Positions 10,629 through 40,192 of a stretch of DNA of 64,000 nt are shown piece after piece. The stretch is from Couchioplanes caeruleus (GTDB lineage: Bacteria > Actinomycetota > Actinomycetes > Mycobacteriales > Micromonosporaceae): NCBI RefSeq assembly GCF_003751945.1, contig NZ_RJKL01000001.1, forward strand, positions 3,410,001-3,474,000, in the 5' to 3' direction. A model generated the notes under the pieces. The model made no database searches, was not told the origin of the DNA, and worked only from the letters and a program-made list of their open reading frames with translations. The translations under genes were made by a program, and so were the position numbers. Within the stretch, counting starts at the first letter, position 1, and each line of letters begins with the position of its first letter.

Positions 10629-10667
10629 GCCTCCATCCTTACCGGCACCGCCCGGCGGGGCACCGGG

Positions 10668-11336
10668 TCAGCCCGGCTTTTCCGCCTCGAGCACGAGCAG
10701 GACGGGCTTTCCGACGAGCCACACCGCCCACGGCACCTCGGCCGCCATCTCGGCGTCGCCGCTGATCTCGTGCCGGCGGAGGCCGCCGAGGCCGGCTTGT
10801 GTGATCCAGCCCTCATAGTCGGCCACCGCGTGCGGATGAGCCACGAGCCGGTAGGCCGCGCCATCCCTTTCGAACTGCGCGGACATCCCCGTCGCGGCGA
10901 GCACGGGATGGAACACGGAAAGGACCAGCCGGCCACCGGGCCGGAGCACCCGGGCGAACTCCGCCACCGCGCGGCCCGGCTCCGCGAGGTGCTCGGCGAG
11001 CAGCGCGCAGTACACCGCGTCGAACTCGCCGTCGCCGAACGGCAGCCGGTCCTCGAGATCCGCCTCGATCAGCGGCACGCCGGGATGGCGGCGCCGCGCC
11101 ACCGCCAGCATGCCCGGCGAGAAGTCGACCCCGCTCGGACGCGCCCCCGCGTCGAGCATCGCCGCGAGGTTGCGACCGGTGCCGCACCCGGCGTCGAGCA
11201 CGCGCTCGCCCGGGGCCGGCGACAACACCGCCATGCTATGACGCGCGTCGATCGCGACGACGGGATTGGGCGTCTGTTCATAAGACTCCGCCCACAGGTC
11301 GTATCCCGCTTTGGTGCCGATATCTTGAAGCTGCAT
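10668..11336 (-). CDS. Class I SAM-dependent methyltransferase
   Basis: The 222-residue protein has the class I motif I VLDAGCGTGRNLAAML (about residues 45-60), an acidic end of strand 2 (SGVDFSPGML), motif DAVYCALLAEHL and the post-motif LRPGGRLVLSVFHPV, all typical of methyltransferase type 11 enzymes. The substrate is unknown. It is divergent from the FAD monooxygenase gene across a 94-base gap, so it could be a tailoring enzyme at the left edge of the thiopeptide cluster or an unrelated flanking gene. Confidence 0.75.
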   Translation of the reverse strand: MQLQDIGTKAGYDLWAESYEQTPNPVVAIDARHSMAVLSPAPGERVLDAGCGTGRNLAAMLDAGARPSGVDFSPGMLAVARRRHPGVPLIEADLEDRLPFGDGEFDAVYCALLAEHLAEPGRAVAEFARVLRPGGRLVLSVFHPVLAATGMSAQFERDGAAYRLVAHPHAVADYEGWITQAGLGGLRRHEISGDAEMAAEVPWAVWLVGKPVLLVLEAEKPG

Positions 11337-11430
11337 CCTGGACCATCCTGCCGGTAGTGTGAAACAGTCTGAGCCGGACGCAGCCTATCGTTTATCCCGA
11401 TCGCCCGGCAATGCAGAAAGCGGGGAGACA

Positions 11431-12672: not shown

Positions 12673-12684
12673 CGACCGGCAGGT

Positions 12685-12721
12685 GGCGGCCGGTCCGGAA
12701 CGCGCGTCCGGGCCGGCCGCC
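12685..12721. terminator. Bidirectional terminator-like hairpin
   Basis: Positions 12685-12699 and 12707-12721 pair as a 15-base GC-rich stem with one G-T wobble and a seven-base loop. It lies in the 68-base gap between two convergent stop codons, the expected place for a shared terminator. Confidence 0.7.
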
Positions 12722-12740
12722 GGGCCGGTGAGCGAGGCGG

Positions 12741-14243: not shown

Positions 14244-14259
14244 GATCGGTCCTTTCGCC

Positions 14260-15237
14260 TCACCGCGCACTCGCGGTCACCTCGGAGACCGCCCGCCAGA
14301 GCAGGTACATCAGGTACGCCTCCTCCGGCAGGGAGATTCCCAGCCGGTTGTTGTGCATGTGGGAGCAGAACAGCAGCACGCTGCGGAGATCGGCGTCGGC
14401 GGCACCGTCCGCGATCAGCACCTCCCGCGGCGCGAACAGGCCTCGGCGTCGCAGTGCCACGAGGTCGTCGCGAAGGCCGGTGACCGAGGCGGCCCAGCGC
14501 CCCACCGCGGCGCCGGCCCGGTCGACGGTGCCCGTCTCGACCAGGCGCATGACGCGCTCCACCGTGCCGATCAGGGTGGCGCGCTGACGCAGGTACTTCT
14601 GCTCGAACCGGTTCTGCCCGGCCTCCGGGTCGCCGAACAGCAACCGGCCGCCCCAGTCGCGACTGCCCGTGCCGAGGTGACCGGCCAGCCCGCCGGCGCC
14701 CGCCGGGACCATCGCGGCGATCAGCATCATCGCCAGCGCCTGCCCGGTACGCCGCCCGCTGCCCGCGTCCCCGGCCAGGAGCTCGGCCGCCACGTCGCTG
14801 GATGCCGTGAAGTGCCGCTCCACGGCCCGCATCGCCTCCGGCGTCCCGCCGTACCGGGCGAGCTCGGGCCGGTACGGCACGTGGTGCATCGTGTTGTCCG
14901 GTCGCAGCGGCTCCACCTCGTCCTGGCCCCGCTCGACGGCCACCAGCGACGCCGCGAGTTTCTGGTATTCCTCCGGGTCGATGACCTTGCGGGAGGGGTG
15001 CGTACGGAGGAACCCGCCGACGTGGCGCTCCAGCAACGCCGACACTTGCGGCACGTGAGCCGGCGGGGTGCACAGCCGCAGCCGCAGGTGCGGACCCGCC
15101 TGCCAGTGCCGTACGAAGAACCAGCTCTTCACAAGGCCACGAGCCTCGGCGAGCAGCGGCCGCACACCGCCGCGGATCAGCGCCTCGAGCGGCTCGTGGT
15201 AGTGAATGTGGACACTGGTCCAGCCCGGCTCAGTCAT
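14260..15237 (-). CDS. Thiopeptide-type (SpaB_C) protein 1: glutamate elimination or pyridine synthase
   Basis: The 325-residue protein matches the stand-alone thiopeptide-type bacteriocin biosynthesis domain. It has SVHIHYHEPLEALIRGGVRP at the start, RHWQAGPHLRLRL (about residues 43-55), and the C-terminal HMHNNRLGISLPEEAYLMYL. Members either remove glutamate from glutamylated Ser/Thr to give dehydroamino acids or catalyse the formal [4+2] cyclisation that forms the central pyridine. It overlaps the LanB gene by eight bases, and this coupling, plus the HMHNNRLG motif, favours the elimination role (TbtC/TclL-like). The assignment of the two paralogues remains provisional. Confidence 0.85.
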   Translation of the reverse strand: MTEPGWTSVHIHYHEPLEALIRGGVRPLLAEARGLVKSWFFVRHWQAGPHLRLRLCTPPAHVPQVSALLERHVGGFLRTHPSRKVIDPEEYQKLAASLVAVERGQDEVEPLRPDNTMHHVPYRPELARYGGTPEAMRAVERHFTASSDVAAELLAGDAGSGRRTGQALAMMLIAAMVPAGAGGLAGHLGTGSRDWGGRLLFGDPEAGQNRFEQKYLRQRATLIGTVERVMRLVETGTVDRAGAAVGRWAASVTGLRDDLVALRRRGLFAPREVLIADGAADADLRSVLLFCSHMHNNRLGISLPEEAYLMYLLWRAVSEVTASAR

Positions 15238-17845
15238 CCCGGCCGTCCCCCAGCTCGATGACGAACTCGCCGGCGTACCCGCCCTCGCCGTCGTGCAGGA
15301 CCAGCTCGTCCGGGCCGGGGAGCATCTCCTCGAAGACGAGCATCTGGTCGGTGTTCATCGTGGTCTCCTCGAACGCCCGCAGCAGGATCTCGCTGGAGAA
15401 GTCCAGGTACAGCGGCTTGCGGGTCTTGTCGAACAGGCCCTTCGTCCGGGACCGCTGCGCCGGGCCACCGTGCCGGGTCAGGACGCGGACGAAGCAGCGC
15501 TGCGGAATGCCGTGCCGCCGGCGCCACCGGTTGACGTCGATCAGGTAGTCGAGCATCGCCCCGTCCCGGGAGCGGCGGGGCACCTCGCGCGCCGCCACCG
15601 TCCAGGAGGCCCGGTTGACCGTCAGATCGCCGAGGACGAGCCGGGGATACCGGCGGACGCCGTCCGCCGCACCGCCGTCCGCGGCGAAGGCGAGCTGCTT
15701 GACGAACTCGAACCGGGGCACCGCCTGGCCGAACATCTGCAGGAGGAAGCGGTACGCGCCCGGCAGGAGGAACTCGACCATGACCCCGAGGTGCACCGGC
15801 AGGATCTCGATGCCGTGGCGCACGGAGAACAGCCGCAGCGTCCGCCGCTCGGCGTCGTGCACCACCCGCAGATCGGCCAGCGGGATCCGGCGGTCCTCCG
15901 GCCGTTCGGACGGCACCGACGGATAACTGATCTCGAAGGGGGTCACCGGAGGCCGCCGGTTGAGGTTCGACGCGAAGGTTCCGGTGATCTCGACCGCGTG
16001 CCGGCCGCCGACCCGCCAATCCCCCTCCCCGGGTGTGAACGTTCCGGCCGCCGTGGCGCCGAGCCGGAGCAACCGGGCCCGGCTGCGCCCGAAGCCGGTC
16101 ATCAGCTCGTTCAGCACCCCGCGCGGCGACCCACCGGGATTCGCGATCGGCTGGACATAGCAGGCGAGGGAAGCGATCGGCTCGACGAAGGCAGGCAGCT
16201 CGCCGAGGAAGGCCCGCAGCGCCGCCCGCGACGGCCCCCGGCATCCGTCGGCGTCCACCGGCTGCGCGGCGACAAGGGCGACCAGGCGCTCCTGCATCCG
16301 CGCCAGCTCGGCCAGCCGGTCGTCGCCCGGCTGCGGTACGGGCAACGCCTGCTCGTAACACCGCAACAGGTCCGCGCCACTGCTCCGCGCCGTCTCCTGA
16401 CAGAACGCACCGTAGAAGTCGAGGAAGCCGACGCTCGCGCCGGAGCCGTAGCGGCCGGCGAAGAACGCCTCGGCGGCCAGCTTGCCCGGAAGGAACCGGT
16501 CGTAGAGACCCGCCAGGCGGCGTACCACGTCCAACCCGTCCAGGACGTCGTGCCACCGCTGCGGGGACTGGACCTGCTCCGCGCCGGTGAGCAGGACGTC
16601 CTCGTAGAAGACGTTCTTGGGAAACTCCATGGCCGTGCCGGCCCAGCCGAGGTGCGCGTAGATCTTGCGTAGCTCCGCACCGATCGCGCGCGAGCACTCC
16701 AGGCGCTCATCGGGATCCTCCAGCGACCCGTACGCGTCCAGCTCGGCGCGCAGCGACCTGAGGCCCCCGCGTACGGTAGCGACGCGCTCGCCGTCGAAGC
16801 GCTCGAGTTCCCTGGCGAGCCGGCCGAGCGGATCCGGGTCGCTCTCCGAAACCCCGAATCCGATATGGACGGCGCCCAGGTCGATGAGCTTGTTCAGGAA
16901 CGTGGCGATCTCTGCGGTGCGGCCCCGTCCGTCCTGGGCGGCGAGCGCGTCCACCACACCCCGGAAGGTGCGGTCGTCGCCGTGGCGCACCTGGTCCAGG
17001 AAGCGCCGTACGGTCGCGGTGCGGGGCAGTTCCACGACGGCCTCACCGCCCGGCTGTCCGAGGAAGCGGAGCGCATCGCCGTCCTCGGTGAGGCTGCTGT
17101 TGACCTCGAGCGGCAGGTGCGCCCGGATCTCCGGCCAACCGGCCAGGGTGCGCTCGATCTGCCGCTGGGTGAAGGCGTTGAGCTCGGCGATCCCGATGCG
17201 CCCGGACTCGATCGGCGCGTCCGGATCCGGCGCCTCCGGATGCCAGCGTCCCGGGAACGATCCGGTGAACGTGCTGAACGGGCTGGTCTTCGCCGCCATC
17301 CGCGCGACGTACTTGGCCAGCTTTCGCTCCACGCGCGGATCCGGCTCGTCGGGTGACCACTTCGCCAGACCCAGGTAGAGGTCGCGGCTGGCCAGGACGA
17401 GCCCCTGCTGCAGGCGTACGTGCGAGGCGAGGTCCCGCAGCGCACGCCGCCCGCTCACGCTCTCCTCGCCGAGCGCCGCGCGCGCCTCGTTGAGAAGCTT
17501 GTCGCGCTCGCACATCCGGCGCTGCCAGGCGTCCACAGCGCCGGCGGTCTCCCGCGGCAGGCGGTCGATCAGATCGGCCCCGAGGACACCGGTCCGGGGC
17601 GGCTTGGCGTGGTAGACGGCGCGGCGCAGGACGATGAGTCGGCGTCGCATCGCCACGTCGCCGTTGCCTCCAATGGCGCCGTGCAGCATCTTCGAGAGGG
17701 ACTCCCGCTGGTCGTCCAGCCACCGCTCGGCGTCGAGGACCCGATCGACGAGCGCCGCCGTACGGCCGCAGCGCAGCCGCGCCAGCGCCGAGAGCGGCAT
17801 CCCCGCGACACGCACCACGAACGTCGGCTCGACTCGGTAACCCAT
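15230..17845 (-). CDS. LanB-type dehydratase, glutamylation domain protein
   Basis: The 871-residue protein corresponds to the N-terminal Lant_dehydr region only, as in thiopeptide split LanB enzymes (TbtB/TclK). It should use glutamyl-tRNA to glutamylate Ser and Thr of the core. The conserved motif AAKTSPFSTFTG lies at about residues 184-195, and C-terminal blocks such as RFEFVKQLAFAA and DYLIDVNRWRRRHGIP are recognisable. The elimination domain is absent from this protein and supplied by the overlapping downstream gene. The core contains only three hydroxy residues (two Ser, one Thr), so its substrate set is small. Confidence 0.9.
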   Translation of the reverse strand: MGYRVEPTFVVRVAGMPLSALARLRCGRTAALVDRVLDAERWLDDQRESLSKMLHGAIGGNGDVAMRRRLIVLRRAVYHAKPPRTGVLGADLIDRLPRETAGAVDAWQRRMCERDKLLNEARAALGEESVSGRRALRDLASHVRLQQGLVLASRDLYLGLAKWSPDEPDPRVERKLAKYVARMAAKTSPFSTFTGSFPGRWHPEAPDPDAPIESGRIGIAELNAFTQRQIERTLAGWPEIRAHLPLEVNSSLTEDGDALRFLGQPGGEAVVELPRTATVRRFLDQVRHGDDRTFRGVVDALAAQDGRGRTAEIATFLNKLIDLGAVHIGFGVSESDPDPLGRLARELERFDGERVATVRGGLRSLRAELDAYGSLEDPDERLECSRAIGAELRKIYAHLGWAGTAMEFPKNVFYEDVLLTGAEQVQSPQRWHDVLDGLDVVRRLAGLYDRFLPGKLAAEAFFAGRYGSGASVGFLDFYGAFCQETARSSGADLLRCYEQALPVPQPGDDRLAELARMQERLVALVAAQPVDADGCRGPSRAALRAFLGELPAFVEPIASLACYVQPIANPGGSPRGVLNELMTGFGRSRARLLRLGATAAGTFTPGEGDWRVGGRHAVEITGTFASNLNRRPPVTPFEISYPSVPSERPEDRRIPLADLRVVHDAERRTLRLFSVRHGIEILPVHLGVMVEFLLPGAYRFLLQMFGQAVPRFEFVKQLAFAADGGAADGVRRYPRLVLGDLTVNRASWTVAAREVPRRSRDGAMLDYLIDVNRWRRRHGIPQRCFVRVLTRHGGPAQRSRTKGLFDKTRKPLYLDFSSEILLRAFEETTMNTDQMLVFEEMLPGPDELVLHDGEGGYAGEFVIELGDGRDD

Positions 17846-17860
17846 CCGCGCAACGACTCC

Positions 17861-19399
17861 TCAGTACGTGATCGGCAGGCCGACCTGGACCCCCGGCCGG
17901 TTGTGGGCGACGGCGATCTGGAAGAACGGGGTGAGCCCGGCGTCCGCGAGCCCCAGGATCGAGGCCACGCCCTCCGCGTCGTAGCCGTTGTGCACGCGGG
18001 CCGAGAGCCCGCGCGCGGCACTGCGCACGCAGATGCGCTGCGCGACGATGCCCGCCTCGATGTTGACCATCCGGTAGGCGCGATTGCCGAAGGCCCGGCT
18101 GGCCGCGGGATAGTCCGCCGACAGATACAGCACGACGGCCGACGACAGCAGGTTGATGTTGGGCACCGGCAGGGCGCCCTGCAACTGCCGGGCGACGTTC
18201 CCCTCGCGCACCGGGTGCAGGCCGGCATGGTCGGGACAGAACCGGTAGATCCCGGCGGCCAGACCCTCGACGTCGAGGACCACCACGTCCAGGCTCACGC
18301 CCGGCACACCCGTCCCGGCCCTCAGGTCGCTGCGATACGGCACGGTCGCCGACCCCACGATCTCCCAGAAGACCGAGATCGGCAGCGTACGGGCGACAGG
18401 ATGGAACAACACGTTGCCGGAGTCGCGGGCTCGCAGGGCGGGACCCAGCTCGAAGGCGGGAAGCCGTTCCCGCGGCATCGCGAGCTCGGTGGCGCCTTCC
18501 GCGCAGGCGGGCGCGGCCGATGGCACCGCCCCGAACTGGTCCTCGTCGTCCAGCAGGCAGTTGTCCGCGATCGACCGGAACAGCGGGTCGTGCGCGTGGG
18601 ACGGTCCTTCCGGGCGTACGTATGGCAGCGCCAGGTCGGGTATGTCGTCCTCGGCGGGACCGGGCCGGGTGCGCTCGCTCGCCGGATCGGTGTCCGGGTA
18701 CAGCGCGAGCGCCGCGAAGAGTTGCTCCTCGGAGCATGGGAAACCGAGCAGACGCCCCGCCCGGCGGTCCAGGAACCGGTAGCTCGCCTCGCCCCGGAGT
18801 CCCAGCCGGTCCGCCACCAGCAGAGCGTTGCCCAGCACCATGCCGGCCTCCTGGGCGCAGAGCCGGTAGGCGTACCCGCGGTATTTGAAGGCGTTCTTCC
18901 AGAACAGCGACGACAGCAAGAGCACGCCGCGCGCGCCGTCGAGGCCCGCACCGAGGATCCGTGCCAACTCCGCCCGGAAGTCACCGGGCCGGATCAGCGC
19001 GAGGGCGTGGTGCAGGGCGTCGTAGTGGTAGATGCCCGCGGGCCCGTCCGACCCGGGAAGCCAGAGGTACAGCTCGGTCGGGAAGTAGCACCGCGCCGAC
19101 GGGACGGTCCGGTGGTAGGGCCACACCGCGCCGGGGCCGACGTCCCAACGGGAGAAGCCGTACGTGTAGTACAGCAACGTCGACAGCCGCCGGTCGGTCA
19201 GATCGCCCTGCGCATCGGTCCCGATCTCCTCGGGTATGGCCTCCGGCAGCTTCCGGCGCGGCACCTGCCGGTAGACCTTGAACGGCAACGGATCCGGGCC
19301 GGCCGGCTCCTGCCGCATCGCCTCCGCGAACAGGTCCGCGGCCTCGTACACGGTGCGGCGCAGATAACGCTCGCCGATCTGGAGATCCTGGTTACCCAT
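17861..19399 (-). CDS. SagB-type azoline dehydrogenase, copy 2
   Basis: The 512-residue protein has the same two-lobed layout as copy 1. The FMN region is RTVPSARCYFPTELYLWL (about residues 97-114), the catalytic Lys-Tyr pair is at 172-173 (NAFKYRGYAYR), and the second lobe ends with NIEAGIVAQRICVRSAARGL. It lies directly between the YcaO and LanB genes, the usual site of the thiopeptide dehydrogenase, so it is the more likely ancestral TbtE equivalent. I used the ATG at 19399 because the ribosome-binding site GAGGAAG is correctly spaced from it. The divergence of the two copies suggests division of labour on the ten Cys of the core. Confidence 0.87.
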   Translation of the reverse strand: MGNQDLQIGERYLRRTVYEAADLFAEAMRQEPAGPDPLPFKVYRQVPRRKLPEAIPEEIGTDAQGDLTDRRLSTLLYYTYGFSRWDVGPGAVWPYHRTVPSARCYFPTELYLWLPGSDGPAGIYHYDALHHALALIRPGDFRAELARILGAGLDGARGVLLLSSLFWKNAFKYRGYAYRLCAQEAGMVLGNALLVADRLGLRGEASYRFLDRRAGRLLGFPCSEEQLFAALALYPDTDPASERTRPGPAEDDIPDLALPYVRPEGPSHAHDPLFRSIADNCLLDDEDQFGAVPSAAPACAEGATELAMPRERLPAFELGPALRARDSGNVLFHPVARTLPISVFWEIVGSATVPYRSDLRAGTGVPGVSLDVVVLDVEGLAAGIYRFCPDHAGLHPVREGNVARQLQGALPVPNINLLSSAVVLYLSADYPAASRAFGNRAYRMVNIEAGIVAQRICVRSAARGLSARVHNGYDAEGVASILGLADAGLTPFFQIAVAHNRPGVQVGLPITY

Positions 19400-19409
19400 C
19401 ACATCTTCC

Positions 19410-21377
19410 TCAGGGGAACGGATGCGGATGCGGGTTGATGTCGGCGTCGGTCAGCGGCCGGTCGTAGTAGCCCAGCTCGTGCGGCACCCGGTACAGACGC
19501 GCGAAGCCCCGGTCCCGGCGCCGGGAGTGGCCGAAGGTCATCGGCAGACAGCCCGGGATGACGACCTTGACGCAGCGGAAGTCGCCGGCGCGGTGTTCGG
19601 GCGTGGTCTGGTCCACGGCGATCACGTCGAGGCCGCCGCGGCGGTACCGCTCGACCGTGTCGATCAGGTCGAGGGTCAGATCCGTGTGCCGCGGCCCCCG
19701 GTAGTAGTCCGCGAACGCCTCCTGGAAGGTCTGCCGCTGCGGGGAGCCGAGGAGGAAGTCGAAGCGGTCGAAGACCTCCGGCGCGCCGTTCAGCGCCGCA
19801 TGGTCCTCCATGGACACCACCTCGTACGGGTCCGCGAGCATCCGCTCCACCCGCGGACGCTGCTGCCGGTGGAACTCCGCGGGCCGGCTGACCAGCGGTC
19901 CGAGCTCCATGAGGGCATTGCGCAGCGCCTTGACGGGATCGAGGTGCGAGCCCGAGGCGCAGAGCACCTGCGGCATGTCCGGCATGCCCCGCCGGTTCAC
20001 GGCCATGACCCAGAAGGCCGGGATGCCCTGCTCGACCGTGATGTTGAAGACCTCGATCGAGTAGCCGGAGAAGCTCTCGATGCTCCCGACGATCAGCGGG
20101 ATGTCGGGATCCGGCGCCGAGCGCACGTCGATCCGTGGAACGGAGAGCCGGGCGTACCAGGTCATCAGGAACGCGTCCCGCTCGGCCACCTCGAGGATGC
20201 CGTACAGGATCGCCTCCTCGAGGCATCCGCCCAGCGCACAGCCGTTCGAGATCTCGTAGACGAACGGATGGTCCCGGGTGTTGCGGTAGACCGTGCCGTA
20301 GTACGCGTAGTTCTCCGGCACGAGAATCGGCCGCTCCTGGCCCAGCGACCAGCCCCACACCCAGTTGAAGACCAGGTCAGGAGAGAACCGCGGGTACGGG
20401 AAACCCGGCCGGTCGTAGAGCTCGTCGGCGTGCAGTCCCAGCACCCTCGGATCCAGCGCCTCGTCGCCCAGCTCGCGGTAACTGGATCGCACCACGGTCC
20501 GCTTGCCGCCCGGCTCGATGCCGCCGTACCGTTCCACACCCTCGGCGATCGCGGTGAGCTGGCTTGCGGCGAAGTTCGTCTGATGGCCGTAGCCGACCTC
20601 GGTGCGGGTCGTCGCCCGCAGCCCCATCGGTGAGCTGGCGCTGGGGAAGACGCTGCGGCCCTCCTTGTAGACCGCCCGCAGCAGGCCTGCCTCGCGGTCC
20701 ACGTAGACCCGGTGCAGCCGGTCCTGCTCCCCCGCCAGCGAGCGGACCCGGTAGGTGTCCGGAGCCACCTTCGGCCGGGGCGCGAGCTCGACGACGGCGG
20801 CCTCGCGGGAGTCCTCCGGAAGCCGGCCGCACCGCTCGCACAGAGGATCGGGCAGCCAGTGGTGGGTGCTCGTGCGCAGGCTGTCGAGCGCCACGCGGAT
20901 CATCGGCCCCGGCTCGCCACCCGCGACGAGCCGGTCGACCTCCCGCCCGATCAGGGTCGCGACCAGGTCGGCGGCGAGTGCGGTCAGCCAGTCCGCGCCC
21001 ATCGTCGCCATTCGCAACGGCTCGGCGTCGAGGGCCTTGCCGAAGTCGCCGACGTCGTTGCGGGCCCGCAGCCGCCGACCCTCGACGCAGATCAGGCAGC
21101 CCTCGTCCACAGCAGACAGCACCGGACCGACCAGGGCAGCGCCGGGCACCACGTACACCGGGAGCAGCGACACTTCGTTGTCCAGGCACCAGTCATTCCA
21201 GGTGCGGTGCTGCTCACGGTCCCACCCGTCGTGGATGAGGACCAGGACGTCGACGGACCGGTCGTCGCGGTTCTCCGGATCGACGCGTTCCACCCGGTGG
21301 CGCGGCGACAACAGGGACATGGCAGCGTCGTGCAGCATGCCGTTCCCGGCCACGCCGACCCGCGTTTCCCCGGCCAT
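19410..21377 (-). CDS. YcaO cyclodehydratase fused to an E1-like N-terminal region
   Basis: The 655-residue protein forms thiazolines from Cys by ATP-dependent cyclodehydration. Residues 1 to about 200 resemble the C-terminal part of E1-like partner proteins (DEGCLICVEGRRLRARND near 91-108, a CERC pair at 180-183). The YcaO domain follows, with the ATP-binding helix QLTAIAEGVERYGG (about 273-286), and the protein ends in PHPHPFP, the Pro-rich tail typical of azoline-forming YcaO enzymes. This is the TbtG-like arrangement. It is one base apart from the upstream partner gene, and the downstream dehydrogenase follows within ten bases. Confidence 0.92.
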   Translation of the reverse strand: MAGETRVGVAGNGMLHDAAMSLLSPRHRVERVDPENRDDRSVDVLVLIHDGWDREQHRTWNDWCLDNEVSLLPVYVVPGAALVGPVLSAVDEGCLICVEGRRLRARNDVGDFGKALDAEPLRMATMGADWLTALAADLVATLIGREVDRLVAGGEPGPMIRVALDSLRTSTHHWLPDPLCERCGRLPEDSREAAVVELAPRPKVAPDTYRVRSLAGEQDRLHRVYVDREAGLLRAVYKEGRSVFPSASSPMGLRATTRTEVGYGHQTNFAASQLTAIAEGVERYGGIEPGGKRTVVRSSYRELGDEALDPRVLGLHADELYDRPGFPYPRFSPDLVFNWVWGWSLGQERPILVPENYAYYGTVYRNTRDHPFVYEISNGCALGGCLEEAILYGILEVAERDAFLMTWYARLSVPRIDVRSAPDPDIPLIVGSIESFSGYSIEVFNITVEQGIPAFWVMAVNRRGMPDMPQVLCASGSHLDPVKALRNALMELGPLVSRPAEFHRQQRPRVERMLADPYEVVSMEDHAALNGAPEVFDRFDFLLGSPQRQTFQEAFADYYRGPRHTDLTLDLIDTVERYRRGGLDVIAVDQTTPEHRAGDFRCVKVVIPGCLPMTFGHSRRRDRGFARLYRVPHELGYYDRPLTDADINPHPHPFP

Positions 21378-21378
21378 G

Positions 21379-23433
21379 TCAGCGTCCCCCGGCCATGACG
21401 ACGTTCACGATGTACGGCAGCACCTCGTGCATGACGGGATCGTGGTCCAGCGGCACGACGACCGGCCGATGCCCGCCGTCGCGGAAGCGTGCGAGCAGCT
21501 CCCGGCGGATCTCCGGCCACTCTCGCACCGCGTCGTCGTCCCGGTCCGCCGGGGCGCCGCGCAGGTCGGCGGGCAGGCGGGGCAGGAGGCTGGGACCGTC
21601 TATCGCGTACGCGGGCCACTTGTCCGCCTCCGCCTGATGGTGGCGTAGCGCCTGCTCGAGGACGGCCTCCACCAGCGCGGCGCGGTCGTATCCCGACGCG
21701 GAGCCCACCGACGTGGTGCCGGCGCAGGCGATCAGCGTCGGGACGCCGAGGGAGCCGGTGATGTCGTACACGGTCGGATCGACGCCCAGGACGTCCAGCA
21801 TGTCGAGGAAGCGCGGGACCAGCTCGGTCCGGCCGGCCGCGGCGACGTCGACGCGCGGGAACGGGCGCGTGGCATCCCCGATCTCCGCCAGGGTGATCCG
21901 GGCGGCCCACCCCAGCAGGCCCCGGCTCACCGCCTCGTCCCAGGTGAACCCGGAGGCCAGGCCGGGCACGTCGTCCACGGTCGGCAGCGCGCCGCGCAAC
22001 ACCGGAAAGGCGTCGGTCGCCGGTACGCCGCGAACGTCGTCGCCGAACAGGTCCCACCCCTGAACGAGGGAGTCACCGCCGGTACCAGCGCGTACGGCGC
22101 TCGCCGCGTACAGCTCACAGGCGCGGCGGGTCGCTCGGGCCCGGGCCTCGGTGAAGTCGGTGGCGACCGCGACGGCGGCCAGGCGCTCGCGGTCGAGGCC
22201 GGGCCGCAGCAGGGCGTCGGCGTACTCGGCCCGTGACACCTTCAGCGGCAACTGACCCCAGTCGCCCTCGTCCAGGCTGCCGAGCAGGCCGGTCCGCTCG
22301 TCGAAGCAGGCGGCCGCCGCGGTCGAGAACGCGTCGGCGGAGATCTCGGCTCCCTCGGCGAGGCGCCGTACGGCGGCGAGGAAGTCGGCGTCGCTCCGCA
22401 CCGGCTCGGCACCGTGGACGGAGCACAGCGGGTGCGCGGTGACCGGATGGTTGGCGCTCTGCAAGGTCTCCAGGTCGATCCGGACCATGGCGGCGTCCGT
22501 CTCCAGGGGTCCGGCACCGGTGACGTGCTTGAAGATCTCGAACGCGGCCTGGTGCGCGACGATGGCGGCGGTCGGGCCGGCCAGGAATTCGCTGGTCACG
22601 GCCTCGGCTCGATCGAGGAAGCCGCAACCGTTCCCGCCGTCCTTCCCCTCGCCGCTTCCTTCGTCGCGGCCGAGCACGCGGAGCCAGGCGCATTCCCAGC
22701 AGGCTCCGGCGGTGCCGGTGACGAGCGGACCGATCCAGGCCTCGTCGCCCACCAGGACGGCCTGGATCAGGGCGATGCCGCGCTCCCGGCAGGCCCGGTT
22801 GATCGCGCGCGCCCGGTCGAGCATCGGCTTGTCGGATACGTGGATCACCACGTCGACGCCGTCGAGGTCGAGCGTGGGCTGTTCGGTCAGCGACTGGCGG
22901 GGGTCGCGCCGCCGGGCCCGCTCGGCGTGTTCGGCGATGCGCTGCCGGTCCGTCTCGGCTTCGCCGGTGACGGTCAACCGCACCTGCCGGGCACCGGTCT
23001 GCAGGCACGCCTGCACCAGGGCGACCAGCGAACGCCCGGCGCCGACGAGCAGGACCGTGCTTTCCCGGAATTGCTGGAACCGAAAGGCGGCGGAGTCCTG
23101 GTAATAGTCGATGAAAGCGATCTCGGACTCGAATGCCGCGAGCTCGCCGGCGTCCAAGTCATGGCCGCGGTCGGCGCCGACGTCCTTGACGAATCCCTTC
23201 TGGAGCAGGCCGGCAATCAGGTTCTCGACCATCCGGCGGCGCTGTTCGGAAAGGCCCGCGGTGATCTGTTCGAGCGTGTGTTCGCCGGTGAGGAACGGCG
23301 CCAGCTTGTCGACCCACTGGTAGACGTGCCTGCCCTCCAGCGTGAGGGTTCCATGATTGCTGACGAAATAGATTCCCTCCGCCGAGGGAAGGTACAGCGT
23401 GTCGTTCTTCAGCTTCGGCTTCACGCGCTCCAT
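21379..23433 (-). CDS. Ocin-ThiF-like cyclodehydratase partner with RiPP recognition element
   Basis: The 684-residue protein begins with a winged-helix-like region (YLPSAEGIYFVSNHGTLTLE, up to about residue 95), the likely RRE that binds the leader peptide. An E1-like fold follows (STVLLVGAGRSLVALVQACL around 125-145), with paired Cys (GACWECAW) and a later HPLCSVHG, which may bind zinc. It should deliver the precursor to the YcaO enzyme, as TbtF does in thiomuracin biosynthesis. It is the first enzyme gene after the precursor, 134 bases downstream of it. Confidence 0.88.
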   Translation of the reverse strand: MERVKPKLKNDTLYLPSAEGIYFVSNHGTLTLEGRHVYQWVDKLAPFLTGEHTLEQITAGLSEQRRRMVENLIAGLLQKGFVKDVGADRGHDLDAGELAAFESEIAFIDYYQDSAAFRFQQFRESTVLLVGAGRSLVALVQACLQTGARQVRLTVTGEAETDRQRIAEHAERARRRDPRQSLTEQPTLDLDGVDVVIHVSDKPMLDRARAINRACRERGIALIQAVLVGDEAWIGPLVTGTAGACWECAWLRVLGRDEGSGEGKDGGNGCGFLDRAEAVTSEFLAGPTAAIVAHQAAFEIFKHVTGAGPLETDAAMVRIDLETLQSANHPVTAHPLCSVHGAEPVRSDADFLAAVRRLAEGAEISADAFSTAAAACFDERTGLLGSLDEGDWGQLPLKVSRAEYADALLRPGLDRERLAAVAVATDFTEARARATRRACELYAASAVRAGTGGDSLVQGWDLFGDDVRGVPATDAFPVLRGALPTVDDVPGLASGFTWDEAVSRGLLGWAARITLAEIGDATRPFPRVDVAAAGRTELVPRFLDMLDVLGVDPTVYDITGSLGVPTLIACAGTTSVGSASGYDRAALVEAVLEQALRHHQAEADKWPAYAIDGPSLLPRLPADLRGAPADRDDDAVREWPEIRRELLARFRDGGHRPVVVPLDHDPVMHEVLPYIVNVVMAGGR

Positions 23434-23508
23434 CCAGGGACTTCGCTTCCGGTGCTGCTCATGGAGTTTCGTGCGGGTGCGGCGCCCGCGTCATGCGGAA
23501 CATGGCGA

Positions 23509-23524
23509 TCCGCGATGCCGCGGA
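23509..23524 (-). other. Short hairpin downstream of the precursor gene
   Basis: TCCGCG and CGCGGA form a perfect six-base stem in the 134-base spacer between the precursor stop and the next gene. Such hairpins after RiPP precursor genes often stabilise or attenuate the transcript so that the precursor is made in excess. Here that is inference. Confidence 0.4.
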
Positions 23525-23567
23525 CCCCGCACCCGTCCGTACGGTCAGCGAGTTTCCTCGCCCAGGG

Positions 23568-23741
23568 TCAGCCGCAGGGGCAGCAGCAGCAGCTACAGGT
23601 GCAGCAGCAGCAACCCGCGGAGGCGCCGACCTCGGTCATCCCGTGGCCCATGCCCAGGGACTGCAGGTCGGCGTCGGTCTCGCCCCCGAAGGCGAGGCTC
23701 TCGACCTCGAGATCCTCGAGGTCCAGCTTCAGATCTTCCAC
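23568..23741 (-). CDS. Thiopeptide precursor peptide
   Basis: A GTG at 23741, preceded by AGGAGA at five bases, opens a 57-residue peptide. Residues 1-40 form an acidic leader (VEDLKLDLEDLEVESL at its start, GHGMTEVGA at 32-40). The ending closely resembles, from memory, thiomuracin/GE2270 leaders. Residues 41-57 form the core SAGCCCCTCSCCCCPCG. Numbered from Ser41 as position 1, the only other Ser is position 10, the spacing that yields 26-membered pyridine rings, and positions 7-12 (CTCSCC) equal those of thiocillin. Ten Cys could become up to ten thiazoles. Position 2 is Ala, where most thiopeptides have Cys; lactazole, with Trp there, is a precedent. The core is encoded by TGC-rich trinucleotide repeats. 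Confidence 0.92.
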   Translation of the reverse strand: MEDLKLDLEDLEVESLAFGGETDADLQSLGMGHGMTEVGASAGCCCCTCSCCCCPCG

Positions 23742-23811
23742 GTCGTTCTCCTATCGCTGGAGGTGTTCGGAAGCCGCCGCGATCTGCCCGGGATGCCACG
23801 GCGACTTGTCA

Positions 23812-23841
23812 TTCCTAACACGACATTCGCGGCCATGTCAG
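23812..23841 (-). promoter_or_regulatory. Candidate promoter of the precursor operon
   Basis: On the minus strand CTGACA (23836-23841, five of six matches to TTGACA) and TAGGAA (23812-23817) are 18 bases apart. Transcription would begin near 23805, giving a leader of about 60 bases before the GTG. The region just upstream is the most AT-rich stretch of the cluster (around 23855-23890). Confidence 0.4.
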
Positions 23842-24237
23842 CCTTGCCGATCCACAAACTTAAATTTTGTATTTGCGCCCGGAAAAAGGCAGCACGGAAA
23901 GCGCGATCCGGCATTCACCGCTCGCGCTTTTCATTGCATGACGAAGCCGCACGGCACCGCACAAGGCCGATGTCGAAGCGTGATCTCATTCCGCAAGGGC
24001 GGAACGGGGCAGGTGGTTCGACAACTGTCGAGTTTCGCACCCACTTCGCGAATTATCGCGCAGAACCTCGGCTACACAGAGCAGCCGGCCGTGCCGATCG
24101 GAACCATATACTCCCCCGATGAGTGGCTCGATTCTTGTACAGCTTGTCAACGATGTTGGACACCGTCAAGACCGGTGACCCACTCCACAGCTTTCCCACA
24201 GCCGCGACCCTCCACACAGGCCGGTGTGGGCGTCTTG
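23842..24237. other. Non-coding gap between precursor promoter and hydrolase gene
   Basis: About 400 bases without a supportable gene. It contains an AT-rich tract near 23860-23885 upstream of the candidate precursor promoter, and two TTGAC-containing sites on the minus strand near 24145-24170. Open frames here on either strand lack start sites and similarity. It probably holds the regulatory region of the precursor operon; no cluster-specific regulator gene is present to suggest an operator. Confidence 0.4.
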
Positions 24238-25161
24238 TTAGGACAAGCTGCGCAGCAGGTCGAGCACACGGGGCCAGCACTCCCGGCTGGCTTGCTCGTC
24301 CGAGGCCACCGCGCCACCCATGAGCAGCCGGTCGAAGCCGGCCCGGCGAGGTCGTGAGGCGGTGCCGGGAACGCCGAGGAGATGACCCGCCTCGGGCATG
24401 AGCACATGCTCGTACGGATACCGGTGCCCGTGCCGCGAGAGCCGATCGACGATCAGCGAGCCGAAAAGCTCCGACGGCCAGAGCTGGTCCCGGCCCCCGC
24501 TGAGCACCAGCACCGGCCCGCCGATGCGCTCGACGGGAATCGCCGCCACCGCGACCGCGGCCTCCTGGCTCATCGCCCGCTCGAAGAGGGGCCGGAAGGC
24601 GGTCGGACGCCCACGGACGAAGGCGGTGAACATCTCCCCGTCCGCCGGGGTGGGCGGCGCCATCGGCACGAAGGGCACCGGGGTGCCGCCGTGGCTCCAC
24701 GACGAGCGCGGAGCGCCCATCGCCAGGCGCGGATCGGAGGGTGTGGCCTGCCATGCCACGCTGCTCGGCACATAGGCGACCACGCCGCGGACCCGGTCCG
24801 GCAGGGCGGCGGCGAGCAGCAGCGCGAGCTCGCCGCCCCGGGAACGACCGAGCACCGACAGCCGGCCCGGGTCGGCCTCGGGCCGCCGCGACAGCCAGTC
24901 CAGGGCCCCGGCGAAGTACTCCAGCGGAATCTCGATCAGGTCCGACGGCAGCGGCGCCGTCCCGAAGTAGGCGACGGCCAGCGCGGCGAACCCCGCCCGG
25001 GCCAGAAGCCCCGCGGCGAACGCGGGCACGGCACCCTCGGAGCCGCCCACCACGAGCACCGCGGGATGCGGCCCCGGCGTCGTCGGAGCGCAGAGCACGC
25101 CGACCAGGTCGGGCTGGGAGACCCGCACCGACACGATGTCCGTCACACCCGCGCCGCTCAT
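24238..25161 (-). CDS. Alpha/beta hydrolase, BAAT_C/dienelactone hydrolase-like
   Basis: The 307-residue enzyme has the family motif AVLVVGGSEGAVPAF near residues 35-47 and a nucleophile elbow VLGRSRGGELALLLAA with Ser107. It also has a candidate acid in LSGGRDQLWPSEL and His in MPEAGHLLG, a complete Ser-Asp-His triad. The related acyl-CoA thioesterase C-terminal domains use Cys or Ser here. It overlaps the second SpaB_C gene by four bases (ATGA), so the two are co-expressed. Alpha/beta hydrolases act in several thiopeptide pathways on ester bonds or on leader/macrocycle processing; the exact step here is unknown. Confidence 0.8.
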   Translation of the reverse strand: MSGAGVTDIVSVRVSQPDLVGVLCAPTTPGPHPAVLVVGGSEGAVPAFAAGLLARAGFAALAVAYFGTAPLPSDLIEIPLEYFAGALDWLSRRPEADPGRLSVLGRSRGGELALLLAAALPDRVRGVVAYVPSSVAWQATPSDPRLAMGAPRSSWSHGGTPVPFVPMAPPTPADGEMFTAFVRGRPTAFRPLFERAMSQEAAVAVAAIPVERIGGPVLVLSGGRDQLWPSELFGSLIVDRLSRHGHRYPYEHVLMPEAGHLLGVPGTASRPRRAGFDRLLMGGAVASDEQASRECWPRVLDLLRSLS

Positions 25162-26342
25162 GGACGCCGCGGGCCCGACGCGACGAAGTCCTCGGCCGAG
25201 ATGCCGTAGTGGTCCTCCACGGTGTTGGCGACGAGGTGACAGAGCAGGAACCGCTCCACCGGCCGTACGCCGATCCGGTTCAGATGCAGATAGAGGTAGT
25301 TGAGGGCGAACCGGAACGCCAGGAAGTCCGGATCGCGCTGCAGCGATTCCATCGCCCCGCCCGGGCCCTGCAGCCTGCGGTGAAAGTCACTGTGCCGCAG
25401 CATCTCCGGATCCCAGCCATCCCGTTCTTCGCCCGGCTCGGCGCCTCCCCCCGCCGCCGCTCCTGCCGCCGCTCCTGCCGCCCCGATCCTCTCCGCCGCC
25501 GCTCCTGCCGGCCCGGTCCTCTCCGCCGCCGCGAAGGAGAGTTCGCCGGAGGCGATGAGCCGCTCGGCGACCTCGCGATACCGGCGCAGCACGGCGAGCC
25601 AGTCGGCGACGAACGGCACCGGCTCACCGCGGCCGTCGAGACCGTCGAGGACCGTGACCAGGCGCTCTCTCAGCGCGGGCGCCTGGGCGCGATACCTGTC
25701 GTCGCACGACGCCCGGCGCGTGCCGGGATCCGGAGCGCGGACGATGAAACCCTCGGCGTGCGAACGGTACGAGATGAAACCGCGATCGATTCCCGGCCAC
25801 ATCGCGTGCGCCGTGGCCACCATGAAGTCGAAGGCGAGGGCCATCCGCCCGCCGCCACCGCGGACGTGCGCGAGGGCGCCGAACGCGAGGTCGTTGGTCT
25901 CGTGGTAGAAGTCCTCCAGCAGCTCCGCCGCCGCCTCGCTGCCGAGGACGGGTATGCGCCGGTCGTACGGGTCCCATCGCAGCGAGTTGTCCGGGTGGAA
26001 CGGCGACAGCGGCCCCCATTCCTGCTCCTGCGGCGCGAGCACCTTGTGCACCGCGAGCAGCTCGCGCTCGTCGATCCGGGCGGTCGACGGAAAGGCCGCG
26101 AGGTGCCGGGACACCGCCCGCTCCACTGCCGGACGGATCACCTCGCGGAAGACCCGGTCCGACGCGCGCACGCCCAGCCGCAGGTGCGGTCCCCGGAGCC
26201 AGTGCCGTGTGACGACTAGACGCTCCGCGTGCGGGGCAAGCTCGGCGAACAACGGGCGTACGCACTCGAGGAGCAAGTCGTCCTTGTTCTCCTCGTAGTA
26301 GTAGATCTGAACCCCTTGCCACCTCGGCGAATCTTCACTCAT
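25158..26342 (-). CDS. Thiopeptide-type (SpaB_C) protein 2: probable pyridine synthase
   Basis: The 394-residue protein begins MSEDSPRWQGVQIYYYEENK, has TRHWLRGPHLRLGV at about residues 45-58, and ends with a helix-rich block (FALNYLYLHLNRIGVRPVER, then LCHLVANTVEDHYG). It belongs to the same family as the gene at 14260-15237 but is diverged, and is the better candidate for the TbtD/TclM-type enzyme that joins two dehydroalanines and releases the leader. An Ala/Gly-rich tandem repeat (about residues 271-300, unit AAERxGxAG) is inserted before the C-terminal block. It is divergent from the glycosyltransferase gene and separate from the precursor operon. Confidence 0.82.
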   Translation of the reverse strand: MSEDSPRWQGVQIYYYEENKDDLLLECVRPLFAELAPHAERLVVTRHWLRGPHLRLGVRASDRVFREVIRPAVERAVSRHLAAFPSTARIDERELLAVHKVLAPQEQEWGPLSPFHPDNSLRWDPYDRRIPVLGSEAAAELLEDFYHETNDLAFGALAHVRGGGGRMALAFDFMVATAHAMWPGIDRGFISYRSHAEGFIVRAPDPGTRRASCDDRYRAQAPALRERLVTVLDGLDGRGEPVPFVADWLAVLRRYREVAERLIASGELSFAAAERTGPAGAAAERIGAAGAAAGAAAGGGAEPGEERDGWDPEMLRHSDFHRRLQGPGGAMESLQRDPDFLAFRFALNYLYLHLNRIGVRPVERFLLCHLVANTVEDHYGISAEDFVASGPRRP

Positions 26343-26511
26343 GACGCGGTCCCCCCGGCCGGACTCGGCTTCGACTCGCCCTGGAGTCAACCAAAGGAGA
26401 TCCGGGCTGTCCAAATGACACCGTCCACAAGCGGCGGCTCGCATGGTGGCGGCGAGCCATCGACAACCGTACGATGGCCCCGAACCGGACGCGTGCCTGA
26501 TCGGGGGAAGC
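26343..26511. promoter_or_regulatory. Divergent control region
   Basis: The 169-base gap separates the minus-strand SpaB_C-2/hydrolase pair from the plus-strand glycosyltransferase/methyltransferase pair and must contain promoters for both. A TACGAT box at 26470-26475 is a possible plus-strand -10, but its -35 is poor. No clear operator was found. Confidence 0.4.
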
Positions 26512-27807
26512 ATGGCACGACATTTCGCTTTTGTGCCCTTGGCGGCGCACGGTCATGTCAATCCGACGTTGGCCCTGGCCGGAGAGCTGGTCTCCCGGGG
26601 ACACCGGGTCACCTATGCCACCAGCGCCGACCATGCCCCGGCCGTCGCCCGCACCGGCGCCGCCGTGGTGGAGCTTCCGTGGAAGGCCGAGCTCAGCGCG
26701 ATGGCGGGCAGCGGGTACACCGCCGGCAACATGCTGGCGATGATGGCCGCGGGCGTGACGGAGCTGACGGAAACCTTCGACGCCCTGGTGGCGGCGTTCA
26801 GCGAGGACCGGCCCGACTGTGTGTGCTTCGACATCATGGGCCTGCCCGGCCGGGCGCTGGCCGATCGGCTCGGCGTGCCGGGTGTCGCGCTGGCCCCCAA
26901 CATGGTCGGCAACGCCCACTTCTCGCTGCAGTCCGTGATGTGGCCGGCGGATCTTTCCCCGTCCGATCCCCGGCTGGCGGCGATCGGGCGGGCGCTGGCC
27001 TCCTTCGCCGCCGAGCAGGGGATCAGCCCCGCCTCGGTGCAGCCGCTGTCCGCCCGGGTGCCGCTGCACCTCGTCTTCGTCCCCCGGGCGTTCCAGATCG
27101 CCGGAGACACGTTCGGCCCGGAGTTCCGGTTCCTCGGCCCGTCACTGCCCCCGCCGGTTCCGACGCCGCCCAGGGCACCGGCCTCGGCGGGACCGGCGGC
27201 ACCAGCGGCACCGGCGACACCGGCAGCACCAGCAGCACCAGCAGCAGCACCAGCGGCAGGCTGGCGTCCGCGGACCCACGACCGGATCGTGCTGATCTCG
27301 CTGGGAACCGTCTTCAACGACCGGCCGGACCTGCTCCGCATCTGCCTCGACGCCTTCGCGGACAGCCCGTGGCACGTGGTGCTGGCGACCGGCCGGTCCG
27401 CGGTCCCGGGTCCCTTCCCGGCCAACATCGAGGTGCATCGCCACGTCCCGCAGCTCGAGGTGCTGCGGCACGCCTCCGTGTTCGTCTCGCACACCGGCAT
27501 GGGCTCCACCATGGAGGCGCTGCTGCACGGGGTGCCGCTCGTCTCAGTACCCCAGACTCCGGAGCAGGCGCTCAACGGCCGGCGTGCGGCGGAGTTGGGG
27601 CTCGGCCTCGCGCTGGAGACCGAGAAGATGACCGCCGACATGTTGCGCGACGCGGTCGAGGACGTCGTCGCGGACGCCGGCATCGCGGCGAATCTGCGGC
27701 GCTGGCGCGACATGCTCGGGGCCGCCGGCGGGGCACAGGCCGGCGCGGTCGCCCTCGAGGAGTTCCTTGACCTGCGCACCACCGCCAACAGGAAAGTGAC
27801 GCGATGA
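26512..27807 (+). CDS. Glycosyltransferase, MGT/UGT (GT1) family
   Basis: The 431-residue protein starts MARHFAFVPLAAHGHVNPTL, the acceptor domain of macrolide-type GT1 enzymes, and has the donor-sugar motif VSHTGMGSTMEALLHGVPLV, followed by PQTPEQALNGRRAAELG, near residues 325-362. The ATG at 26512 has GGGGGAAG upstream. The interdomain linker (about residues 211-250) is expanded to a Pro/Ala-rich stretch encoded by repeated GCACCAGC-like units. It is translationally coupled to the FkbM gene. It could glycosylate the mature thiopeptide, as in nocathiacin-type compounds, or inactivate it for self-protection. The core offers few hydroxyls, so an oxygenase may have to act first. Confidence 0.87.
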   Translation: MARHFAFVPLAAHGHVNPTLALAGELVSRGHRVTYATSADHAPAVARTGAAVVELPWKAELSAMAGSGYTAGNMLAMMAAGVTELTETFDALVAAFSEDRPDCVCFDIMGLPGRALADRLGVPGVALAPNMVGNAHFSLQSVMWPADLSPSDPRLAAIGRALASFAAEQGISPASVQPLSARVPLHLVFVPRAFQIAGDTFGPEFRFLGPSLPPPVPTPPRAPASAGPAAPAAPATPAAPAAPAAAPAAGWRPRTHDRIVLISLGTVFNDRPDLLRICLDAFADSPWHVVLATGRSAVPGPFPANIEVHRHVPQLEVLRHASVFVSHTGMGSTMEALLHGVPLVSVPQTPEQALNGRRAAELGLGLALETEKMTADMLRDAVEDVVADAGIAANLRRWRDMLGAAGGAQAGAVALEEFLDLRTTANRKVTR

Positions 27808-28577
27808 CTGCTCTGCACCTCGTCGAGGTCGCCGGCGAACTCACCTGCTACACCCCTGCGGTCGAGAACCCGTTTCTCTCCGAAGCGGACCTCATCTACG
27901 AGGAGGTGTTCCGCCGCAACACCTACCTGCGCCGGCTGAAGCCGATCGGGCCGGATCCCTTCGTCGTCGACGCCGGCGCGAACATCGGGCTGTTCACCCT
28001 GTTCATCAAGCGCCACTATCCGGGAGCGTCCGTCGTCGCGGTGGAACCGATCCCCTGCAACGCCGAGGCGATCCGCGCCAACCTGCGGCTCTACGGGCTC
28101 TCCGGCGTCACGGTGCACGCCGAGGGGCTCTCCGACAAGGCCGACACCGTCGACTTCCACTTCTTCCCGTCGATGCCGGGCAACTCCACGGCGCATCTGG
28201 GCGGCAAGCTTGCCGACCGGGACACCATTGCCGCGTACGTCGACCGCGATCTGCTCGACCAGGTCTACCGGTACGACACGATCCGGGTCCCGGTACGGCC
28301 CCTCTCCGAGATCCTGCGCGAGTCGGCCTCCCCGGAGCTGCCGATCGACCTGGTCAAGATGGATATCGAGGGCGGCGAGGAAGCGGCGCTCGACGGCATC
28401 GACGAGCGAGACTGGTCACGGATCCGCCAGCTCGCGCTCGAGGTGCACAAGAGCCGCGAGACGCTGGACCGCCTCACGGAAAAGCTTCGCGCCAAGGGGT
28501 TCGCCGTGACGGTCCAGGACCCCGGGGGAACCCCGCAGGGCATCGACAACCGCCTGCTCTACGCCAGTCGGCCCTGA
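27804..28577 (+). CDS. FkbM-family methyltransferase
   Basis: The 257-residue protein has motif I FVVDAGANIGLFTLFIKRHY (about residues 53-72), VVAVEPIPCNAEAIRANL, and the FkbM signature IDLVKMDIEGGEEAALDGI. FkbM enzymes are SAM-dependent O-methyltransferases of sugars and natural products. Its ATG overlaps the glycosyltransferase stop by four bases, so methylation of the attached sugar is the simplest idea. It does not look like a 23S rRNA methyltransferase of the thiostrepton-resistance type, which belongs to the SpoU fold. Confidence 0.87.
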   Translation: MTALHLVEVAGELTCYTPAVENPFLSEADLIYEEVFRRNTYLRRLKPIGPDPFVVDAGANIGLFTLFIKRHYPGASVVAVEPIPCNAEAIRANLRLYGLSGVTVHAEGLSDKADTVDFHFFPSMPGNSTAHLGGKLADRDTIAAYVDRDLLDQVYRYDTIRVPVRPLSEILRESASPELPIDLVKMDIEGGEEAALDGIDERDWSRIRQLALEVHKSRETLDRLTEKLRAKGFAVTVQDPGGTPQGIDNRLLYASRP

Positions 28578-28581
28578 AACG

Positions 28582-28618
28582 CGAGTGGGGCGGTCGCATC
28601 ACGCGACCGCCCCACTCG
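28582..28618. terminator. Bidirectional terminator between the cluster and rpoC
   Basis: CGAGTGGGGCGGTCGC and GCGACCGCCCCACTCG form a perfect 16-base stem with a five-base loop. It sits four bases after the FkbM stop and 12 bases beyond the rpoC stop, so it can end both convergent transcripts and insulates the cluster from rpoBC. Confidence 0.85.
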
Positions 28619-28630
28619 GTGTTCACAGAC

Positions 28631-32521
<3,891 letters not shown>

Positions 32522-40115: not shown

Positions 40116-40128
40116 TTCTCTTACTCCA

Positions 40129-40168: not shown

Positions 40169-40192
40169 GAATTCCTCGGGGTGTTGCCTCAA

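Follow-up and report, generated by a model that had tools for sequence, protein, structure and literature searches.

A 13-gene cluster in Couchioplanes caeruleus, probably acquired by horizontal transfer, directs in all likelihood the biosynthesis of a decorated 26-membered thiopeptide along the pathway proposed below. The cluster is inserted precisely at the junction of rpoC and the str operon in the window, the whole stretch of 64,000 nucleotides of DNA analysed here. Judging from its genes, the product is very probably a sugar-decorated thiopeptide antibiotic made from a core peptide with ten cysteines. Both this core, SAGCCCCTCSCCCCPCG, and the accompanying set of tailoring genes are apparently undescribed, within a class of compounds that is already known.

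The precursor is encoded on the minus strand, where positions 23741 to 23568 translate as VEDLKLDLEDLEVESLAFGGETDADLQSLGMGHGMTEVGA-SAGCCCCTCSCCCCPCG followed by a stop codon, with a leader of 40 residues; the plus-strand reading of 23568..23741 does not give this peptide. An AGGAGA motif ends five bases before the GTG start. The original prediction had thus read the peptide correctly, both in its 57-codon GTG gene with a ribosome-binding site and in its core of 17 residues with ten Cys and two Ser (positions 1 and 10), which the translation bears out; the strand, the 13-gene cluster, the relatives and the insertion site had escaped it. It had also likened the leader end, GHGMTEVGA, to that of the thiomuracin type, and this ending indeed recurs in three further precursors (L103, L106, L111), whose cores (SCNCFCYICCSCS...) we take to be those of thiomuracin.

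The peptide scores 32.9 bits against the NCBIfam model NF033399 (thiazolyl_GetA, thiomuracin/GE37468; cut-off 29; 29.8 bits in the genome search) and 21.5 bits against Pfam Thiopep_pre, under the cut-off of 23.5. It therefore belongs to the family of thiomuracin/GE37468-type precursors, and at this level the label “unrecognised” given to it earlier does not stand, since NCBI already names its Microbispora relative P0007 a “thiomuracin/GE37468 family thiazolyl RiPP peptide.” Cysteine-richness alone is no proof of a gene, because a stretch of 17 codons antisense to the glycosyltransferase gene near 27249 also holds ten Cys. What shows the precursor gene to be real is that it has protein relatives, an invariant core with synonymous changes, and a complete thiopeptide cluster around it. 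Its assignment as a thiopeptide precursor, as originally claimed, is supported by the precursor model above its cut-off, the pyridine synthase, and the full enzyme set nearby (Table 1).

Table 1. Features of the thiopeptide cassette in the window, with the evidence for each assignment.
Feature	Coordinates	Strand	Evidence
Cassette, 18.0 kb, 13 genes	10629..28630		Between rpoC (28631-32521) and gene 10284-10628
SAM methyltransferase, outer cassette end	10668..11336	-	PF08241 93.1 bits
FAD-dependent monooxygenase, candidate scaffold hydroxylase	11359..12672	+	PF01494 74.4 bits; 4hb9 E=3.5e-68; other monooxygenases
SagB-type dehydrogenase 2	12741..14270	-	TIGR03605 136.1 bits; overlaps elimination gene
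Glutamate-elimination half, split dehydratase (TbtC type)	14260..15237	-	TIGR03891 92.6 bits; PF14028 156.7 bits
Ser glutamyltransferase half, split dehydratase (TbtB type)	15230..17845	-	PF04738 130.8 bits; 6ec7 E=2.1e-69
SagB-type azoline dehydrogenase 1	17861..19402	-	TIGR03605 138.7 bits
YcaO cyclodehydratase	19410..21377	-	TIGR03604 362.1 bits; PF02624 277.8 bits; C-terminus PHPHPFP
ThiF-like leader-binding cyclodehydratase partner	21379..23433	-	TIGR03882 57.1 bits (above 36.9); TIGR03693 188.5 bits (below 561.9)
Precursor peptide gene, 57 codons	23568..23741	-	GTG start at 23741; stop 23570..23568
Core SAGCCCCTCSCCCCPCG, residues 41-57	23571..23621	-	Boundary from comparison with other precursors
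Alpha/beta-hydrolase, BAAT/acyl-CoA-thioesterase kind	24238..25161	-	PF08840 84.5 bits; 3k2i, 3hlk; GRSRG motif
Pyridine synthase, TbtD/PbtD type	25158..26513	-	NF045556 467.1 bits (cut-off 325); TbtD 5wa3 E=5.8e-57
Glycosyltransferase, macrolide (OleD/OleI) type	26443..27807	+	TIGR01426 330 bits (cut-off 260); YjiC and OleI/OleD structures
FkbM-family methyltransferase	27804..28577	+	TIGR01444 90.2 bits (cut-off 37.7)

The enzymes expected of a thiopeptide producer are present in full. At gene level the pyridine synthase exceeds the cut-off of its model, and its best solved structures are TbtD and PbtD; the true start is probably inside the open reading frame, an inner start being likely because homology begins near residue 64. 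By homology, this enzyme would perform the [4+2] ring closure and leader removal. The YcaO protein, its partner (below the TIGR03693 cut-off) and azoline dehydrogenases are all encoded, as are both halves of the split tRNA-dependent Ser dehydratase; the elimination half reaches 155.9 bits against NF045556, below the cut-off of 325. A methyltransferase and the monooxygenase stand at one end of the cluster, and the glycosyltransferase and the FkbM methyltransferase at the other. Neither an exporter nor an obvious resistance gene was found among the 13 cassette genes.

The cassette can be defined as the 13 named genes because the uninterrupted rpoC interval of congeners sets its limits. In all 29 congeners drawn, rpoC directly precedes the counterparts of two window genes, 10284-10628 and 9771-10235, with no cassette between; rpsL comes next in 26 and does not appear in the stretch read in three. 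In the window this junction holds an insert of 18,002 bases with a G+C content of 70.8%, against 68.5% for the rest of the window, and Couchioplanes G030, from outside the 29-genome draw, carries the cassette at the same site. All 13 genes are present in the same arrangement in the window and in G030, G101, G102, G103 and G495, at 54.7-98.2% identity, with one additional glycosyltransferase within the cluster of G103 and transposase genes on both flanks of that of G495. This patchy spread, together with the clean insertion, indicates that the cluster was probably transferred horizontally. This is a testable thiopeptide family, and the clean insertion also gives exact gene limits.

Seven relatives of the precursor, matching over 70-100% of the peptide, were retrieved from 5.8 billion proteins and aligned with the window peptide (n = 8). 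Ser1 and Ser10 are kept in all eight, with the spacing of 26-membered thiopeptides of the ribosomal GTPase centre, and ten Cys in seven of the eight cores. The claim that these serines are the only two holds for the window and for seven of the eight aligned precursors; the exception is P0008, whose core SEGCPCTTSSCCCCPCAG has seven Cys, an additional Ser9, and lacks three ring Cys, so that the family can do without some of the thiazoles. Residue 2 is Ala or Glu among the eight, and the ten-Cys cores have Thr, Leu or Ala at position 8.

The core appears to be under selection. Across five loci, its codons show no amino-acid change and up to five synonymous ones, whereas the leader codons of the same loci show up to nine amino-acid changes besides a GTG/ATG start; the sixth locus (G495, L091) has an identical core and Ser instead of Ala as its last leader residue. 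The core is thus identical in six loci while the leaders diverge. The two four-Cys runs are encoded largely by (TGC)n, a repeat liable to slippage, and their lengths are nonetheless equal in the six loci, which we take as selection on the product.

Scanning 84,980 species genomes gave 268 stretches with the pattern and four confirmed loci, in Couchioplanes caeruleus subsp. azureus, Saccharopolyspora elongata, S. shandongensis and Amycolatopsis suaedae. Within the family of S. elongata (G101; 390 genomes), ten genomes matched the precursor alignment and four carry the core SAGCCCCTCSCCCCPCG: G101, G102, G103 and, newly, G495. In the window's own family (354 genomes), ten matched and two carry this core, the window and Couchioplanes G030; loci were obtained for 12 of the 16 matches listed there and all 12 were read, L129 giving no precursor. 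In the family of G428 (341 genomes), 34 matched, with a best E of 2e-11, and the core was absent from the 20 loci read. Since Saccharopolyspora and Amycolatopsis belong to one family, the identical core occurs in three genera and two bacterial families, and a close variant is found as a peptide in a third, the Microbispora relative P0007 being known as a protein only.

The core is among the most cysteine-dense read in this analysis. Further very Cys-rich GetA-like cores were seen in L126, L127, L132 and L133 (G1466, G1456), L100 and L118, for example SILPVGCCSCCLPCCCCC and SCSVCSCCVVCCCCCCS, several of them close together; Cys runs were therefore rejected as a unique mark of the present family. 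Separately, a precursor family with the core start SLPFCSCSATCSCC (L124, L125, L102, L107, L108, L113) spans three genera and two families.

The pathway that we propose is modelled on homology with the tbt, pbt and laz systems (for lactazole, passages of PMC7210931), and each of its enzymatic steps is inferred. The precursor leader would recruit the ThiF-like/YcaO cyclodehydratase, which would convert core Cys to thiazolines, and the SagB-type dehydrogenases would oxidise these to thiazoles. The split dehydratase would turn Ser1 and Ser10 into dehydroalanine and probably Thr8 into dehydrobutyrine. The TbtD-type enzyme would then form a pyridine from Dha1 and Dha10 and so close the macrocycle, with loss of the leader amide and water. 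An atom count of two for residue 1 and three for each of residues 2-9 gives the 26-membered ring that the original prediction had derived from the Ser1-Ser10 spacing, in agreement with review passages in which this spacing is typical of ribosome-binding thiopeptides (PMC7136475, PMC3917276). The monooxygenase, glycosyltransferase and methyltransferases would finally decorate the scaffold to a methylated glycoside.

Up to ten thiazoles could form, half of them in the ring and the other half in a Thz4-Pro-Thz-Gly tail. Reaction of all ten Cys and of Thr8 would give an aglycone with the computed formula C52H36N16O7S10 and [M+H]+ at 1317.02. Applied to micrococcin P1, the mass formula falls one water short of that compound's formula when three Thr are counted as dehydrated, and fits it with two. 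The degree of azole formation and the sugar site are guesses.

One rival to this scheme is a linear azol(in)e peptide, in which the core is azolated and never closed to a pyridine; we give it very little credence, for while the density of Cys in the core and the presence of two dehydrogenases would be in keeping with a linear polyazole, the pyridine synthase lies above an equivalog cut-off and has homologues in all five other loci, and Ser1 and Ser10 are conserved throughout the aligned precursors. A second rival concerns the cysteines. The cores SEGCCCCLCSCCCCPCG and SEGCCCCACSCCCCPCG, of the Leu8/Ala8 type, have no side-chain hydroxyl left once both Ser are consumed, and the glycosyltransferase is present in all six clusters read, as would suit a thiopeptide with some Cys free or S-glycosylated in a glycocin-like manner instead of ten thiazoles. 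Against this, the Leu8/Ala8 cores are known as peptides only and all six clusters read have a Thr8 core, and the monooxygenase, likewise found in six of six, could supply a hydroxyl; we consider S-glycosylation unlikely. For the ring-closed glycoside that we prefer, our guess is that the monooxygenase probably installs the hydroxyl used by the glycosyltransferase, because the Leu8/Ala8 cores, read as peptides and not as clusters, offer no other. We also guess that one methyltransferase may cap the sugar and that the C-terminus may be where the hydrolase acts.

The cluster was compared with 24 further loci of GetA-like precursors (19 together with G1010, G992, G592, G571 and G037), in stretches mostly of about 20 kb, not all of which showed every thiopeptide gene. 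Enzyme identities between the window and the loci G1010, G992 and G592, which are of thiomuracin, GE2270 and thiocillin type, respectively, are 26-47%. At E<=1e-8, the monooxygenase, glycosyltransferase, FkbM methyltransferase and hydrolase had no match in any of these 24 stretches, whose limited length keeps this from being proof of absence, and the methyltransferase matched in one (G592). At E<=1e-4, G592 gains a second methyltransferase match, and in L224 weak methyltransferase and monooxygenase matches appear at distances of roughly 5 and 12 kb from YcaO. Possession of two SagB genes was rejected as a unique mark, as G571 also has two. Two arrangements among the comparators were observed in passing: a distant cluster (G571:C1:6057000-6068300, L122) combines the core SCCCSTSACSCST with a P450, a gene in which elimination and dehydrogenase parts are fused, and another SagB-like stretch, and a contig with a GE2270-type precursor (G992:C177; L166, L167) bears two sets of YcaO and dehydratase matches side by side.

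The thiomuracin (tbt) type shares with the window the leader end, the kinds of enzymes and the NF033399 precursor family, as well as the site, G1010 and L215 lying between rpoC and rpsL and L219 adjoining rpoC. It differs in its core (SCNCFCYICCSCS..), in the modest identity of the proteins (29-43% between the window and G1010), in the altered EF-Tu of G1010, and in showing no flavin monooxygenase, glycosyltransferase, FkbM or hydrolase matches in the stretches read. Thiocillin and micrococcin share the S1-S10 spacing and the CTCSCC of positions 7-12, and a related core, SCTTCVCVCSCCTS, was read in L097; the window differs in residues 2-4, with Ala-Gly at 2-3, and in its two four-Cys runs, PCG tail and glycosyltransferase. 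Cyclothiazomycin also has a Cys-rich stretch after the pyridine Ser, with a different core and ring. The GE2270 (pbt) type has another core, SCNCVCGFCCSCSPSA, read in L109, L110 and L112, which we take to be that of GE2270; its cluster occupies the same rpoC-rpsL interval as ours.

Passages on the GE2270 cluster of Planobispora rosea place it between rpoC and rpsL-rpsG-fusA-tuf and call the tuf gene beside it the GE2270 resistance gene (PMC3943966). Persiathiacin and philipimycin, of series e, are glycosylated thiopeptides as our product would be. Persiathiacin, as described in passages of PMC11406533, carries sugars on hydroxypyridine and hydroxythiazole and has a core SCTTCECSCSCSS, P450 hydroxylases, and genes for indolic acid and deoxysugars. 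In contrast, the window has a flavin monooxygenase and one glycosyltransferase, and among its 13 cassette genes there are no deoxysugar genes and none of the P450 hydroxylases and indolic acid genes of series e. Philipimycin was rejected as the product since it belongs to series e.

The original claim that the core matches no thiopeptide agrees with our search of the open literature, in which the strings CCCCPCG, SEGCCCC, SAGCCCC and CSCCCCPC led to no relevant paper and occurred only in papers with unrelated titles; figures, supplementary tables and most subscription papers lay outside this search. A known compound whose cluster or structure was published beyond the literature covered is an improbable explanation.

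As for the target, our guess is that the product inhibits translation, with the ribosomal GTPase centre more likely than EF-Tu. An EF-Tu inhibitor like GE2270 or thiomuracin would fit the chromosomal interval shared with the GE2270 cluster (passages of PMC3943966) and the thiomuracin-type leader end. It would also fit the comparators, where rpoC adjoins the cluster in four of 24 (G1010, L215, L218 and L219, of which G1010 and L215 also show the rpsL side), all four being among the eight with SCNC cores and none among the other 16. Nevertheless, passages of PMC7136475 describe EF-Tu binders as having Asn in the core and a 29-membered ring, whereas the present core lacks Asn and its only Ser pair, 1/10, gives a 26-membered one. 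Moreover, the stretches read in four of the six loci (2-14 kb either side) contain neither rpoC nor rpsL, a point tempered by the fact that four of the eight SCNC loci also lack rpoC in the stretch read.

A further point against this target comes from the EF-Tu next to the cluster. The protein encoded beside the cluster reads TGIEMF...ENVGLLLRG, whereas that of G1010, the only comparator whose EF-Tu was read and hence a control of one genome, reads TSIEMF...DNAALLLRG. Placed by their surrounding residues, the positions changed from Gly to Ser and Ala in G1010 are G257 and G275, which are included in the list of GE2270A contacts in passages of PMC8183687; the EF-Tu beside the window cluster keeps both Gly. 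Its 257-275 segment is identical in all 30 loci of the genus read, and the whole protein differs at residues 76 and 397 only from that of G058, a congener with no precursor match. The idea that the cluster-adjacent EF-Tu is an altered target was rejected, given that this segment is genus-wide and unlike that of G1010.

A second EF-Tu, at G000:C1:7561085-7562266, is 67% identical to the first and reads DNAAVLLRG in place of ENVGLLLRG and thus has Ala at one of the two sites where G1010 departs from Gly, a point in favour of EF-Tu. However, 53 of 59 genomes of the genus give two or more EF-Tu matches. The second copy therefore has no particular link to the cluster and was rejected as cluster-linked resistance; the second EF-Tu of Couchioplanes G030 gave a C-terminal match only. 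As both the 257-275 segment and the possession of a second copy are widespread in the genus, no cluster-linked trait points to EF-Tu as the target, and we regard this reading as unlikely, although the EF-Tu-type insertion site and the Ala in the second EF-Tu mildly weaken our guess of the GTPase centre. The rpoC-rpsL interval, known from GE2270, thus holds a different thiopeptide beside an unchanged EF-Tu, which implies that the insertion site is separable from EF-Tu resistance. A more specific picture, a ten-thiazole glycoside with its sugar on a heteroaromatic hydroxyl made by a flavin monooxygenase rather than a P450, and with a target that is neither EF-Tu nor the GTPase centre, seems very unlikely to be right in full.

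On the ribosomal side, no match to a TsnR-type methylase (PF04705) was found in five of the six producers, G495 lying outside this search. The usual place of rplK (L11) is between nusG and rplA, and the gene is missing there (window 40112-40196); the same gap in all five congeners checked led us to reject a cluster-linked loss of L11.

In two Saccharopolyspora species, a second gene for ATP-synthase subunit a directly adjoins the cluster (L021:11330-12109 in G101; G102:C46:31365-32105). These are two of 22 genomes searched; each of the other 20 Saccharopolyspora genomes gave a single subunit a match, including G495, itself a carrier of this cluster, and in the remaining three producers the sole copy is located elsewhere than the cluster. 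As a long shot, the additional protein could be a spare, insensitive target of the product; with G495 carrying the cluster and no such gene, self-resistance was otherwise rejected. At 19 positions the orphan protein has a residue that 22 housekeeping copies lack. None of these residues is shared by G495; five (39, 88, 140, 234, 266) recur in the window and Couchioplanes, and three (49, 88, 140) in G103, which may be family differences. A second copy is no hallmark of producers, because a 99% identical one occurs in Saccharopolyspora sp. 5N102, and two subunit a proteins are listed under the name of S. erythraea and likewise under that of Umezawaea sp. Da 62-37.
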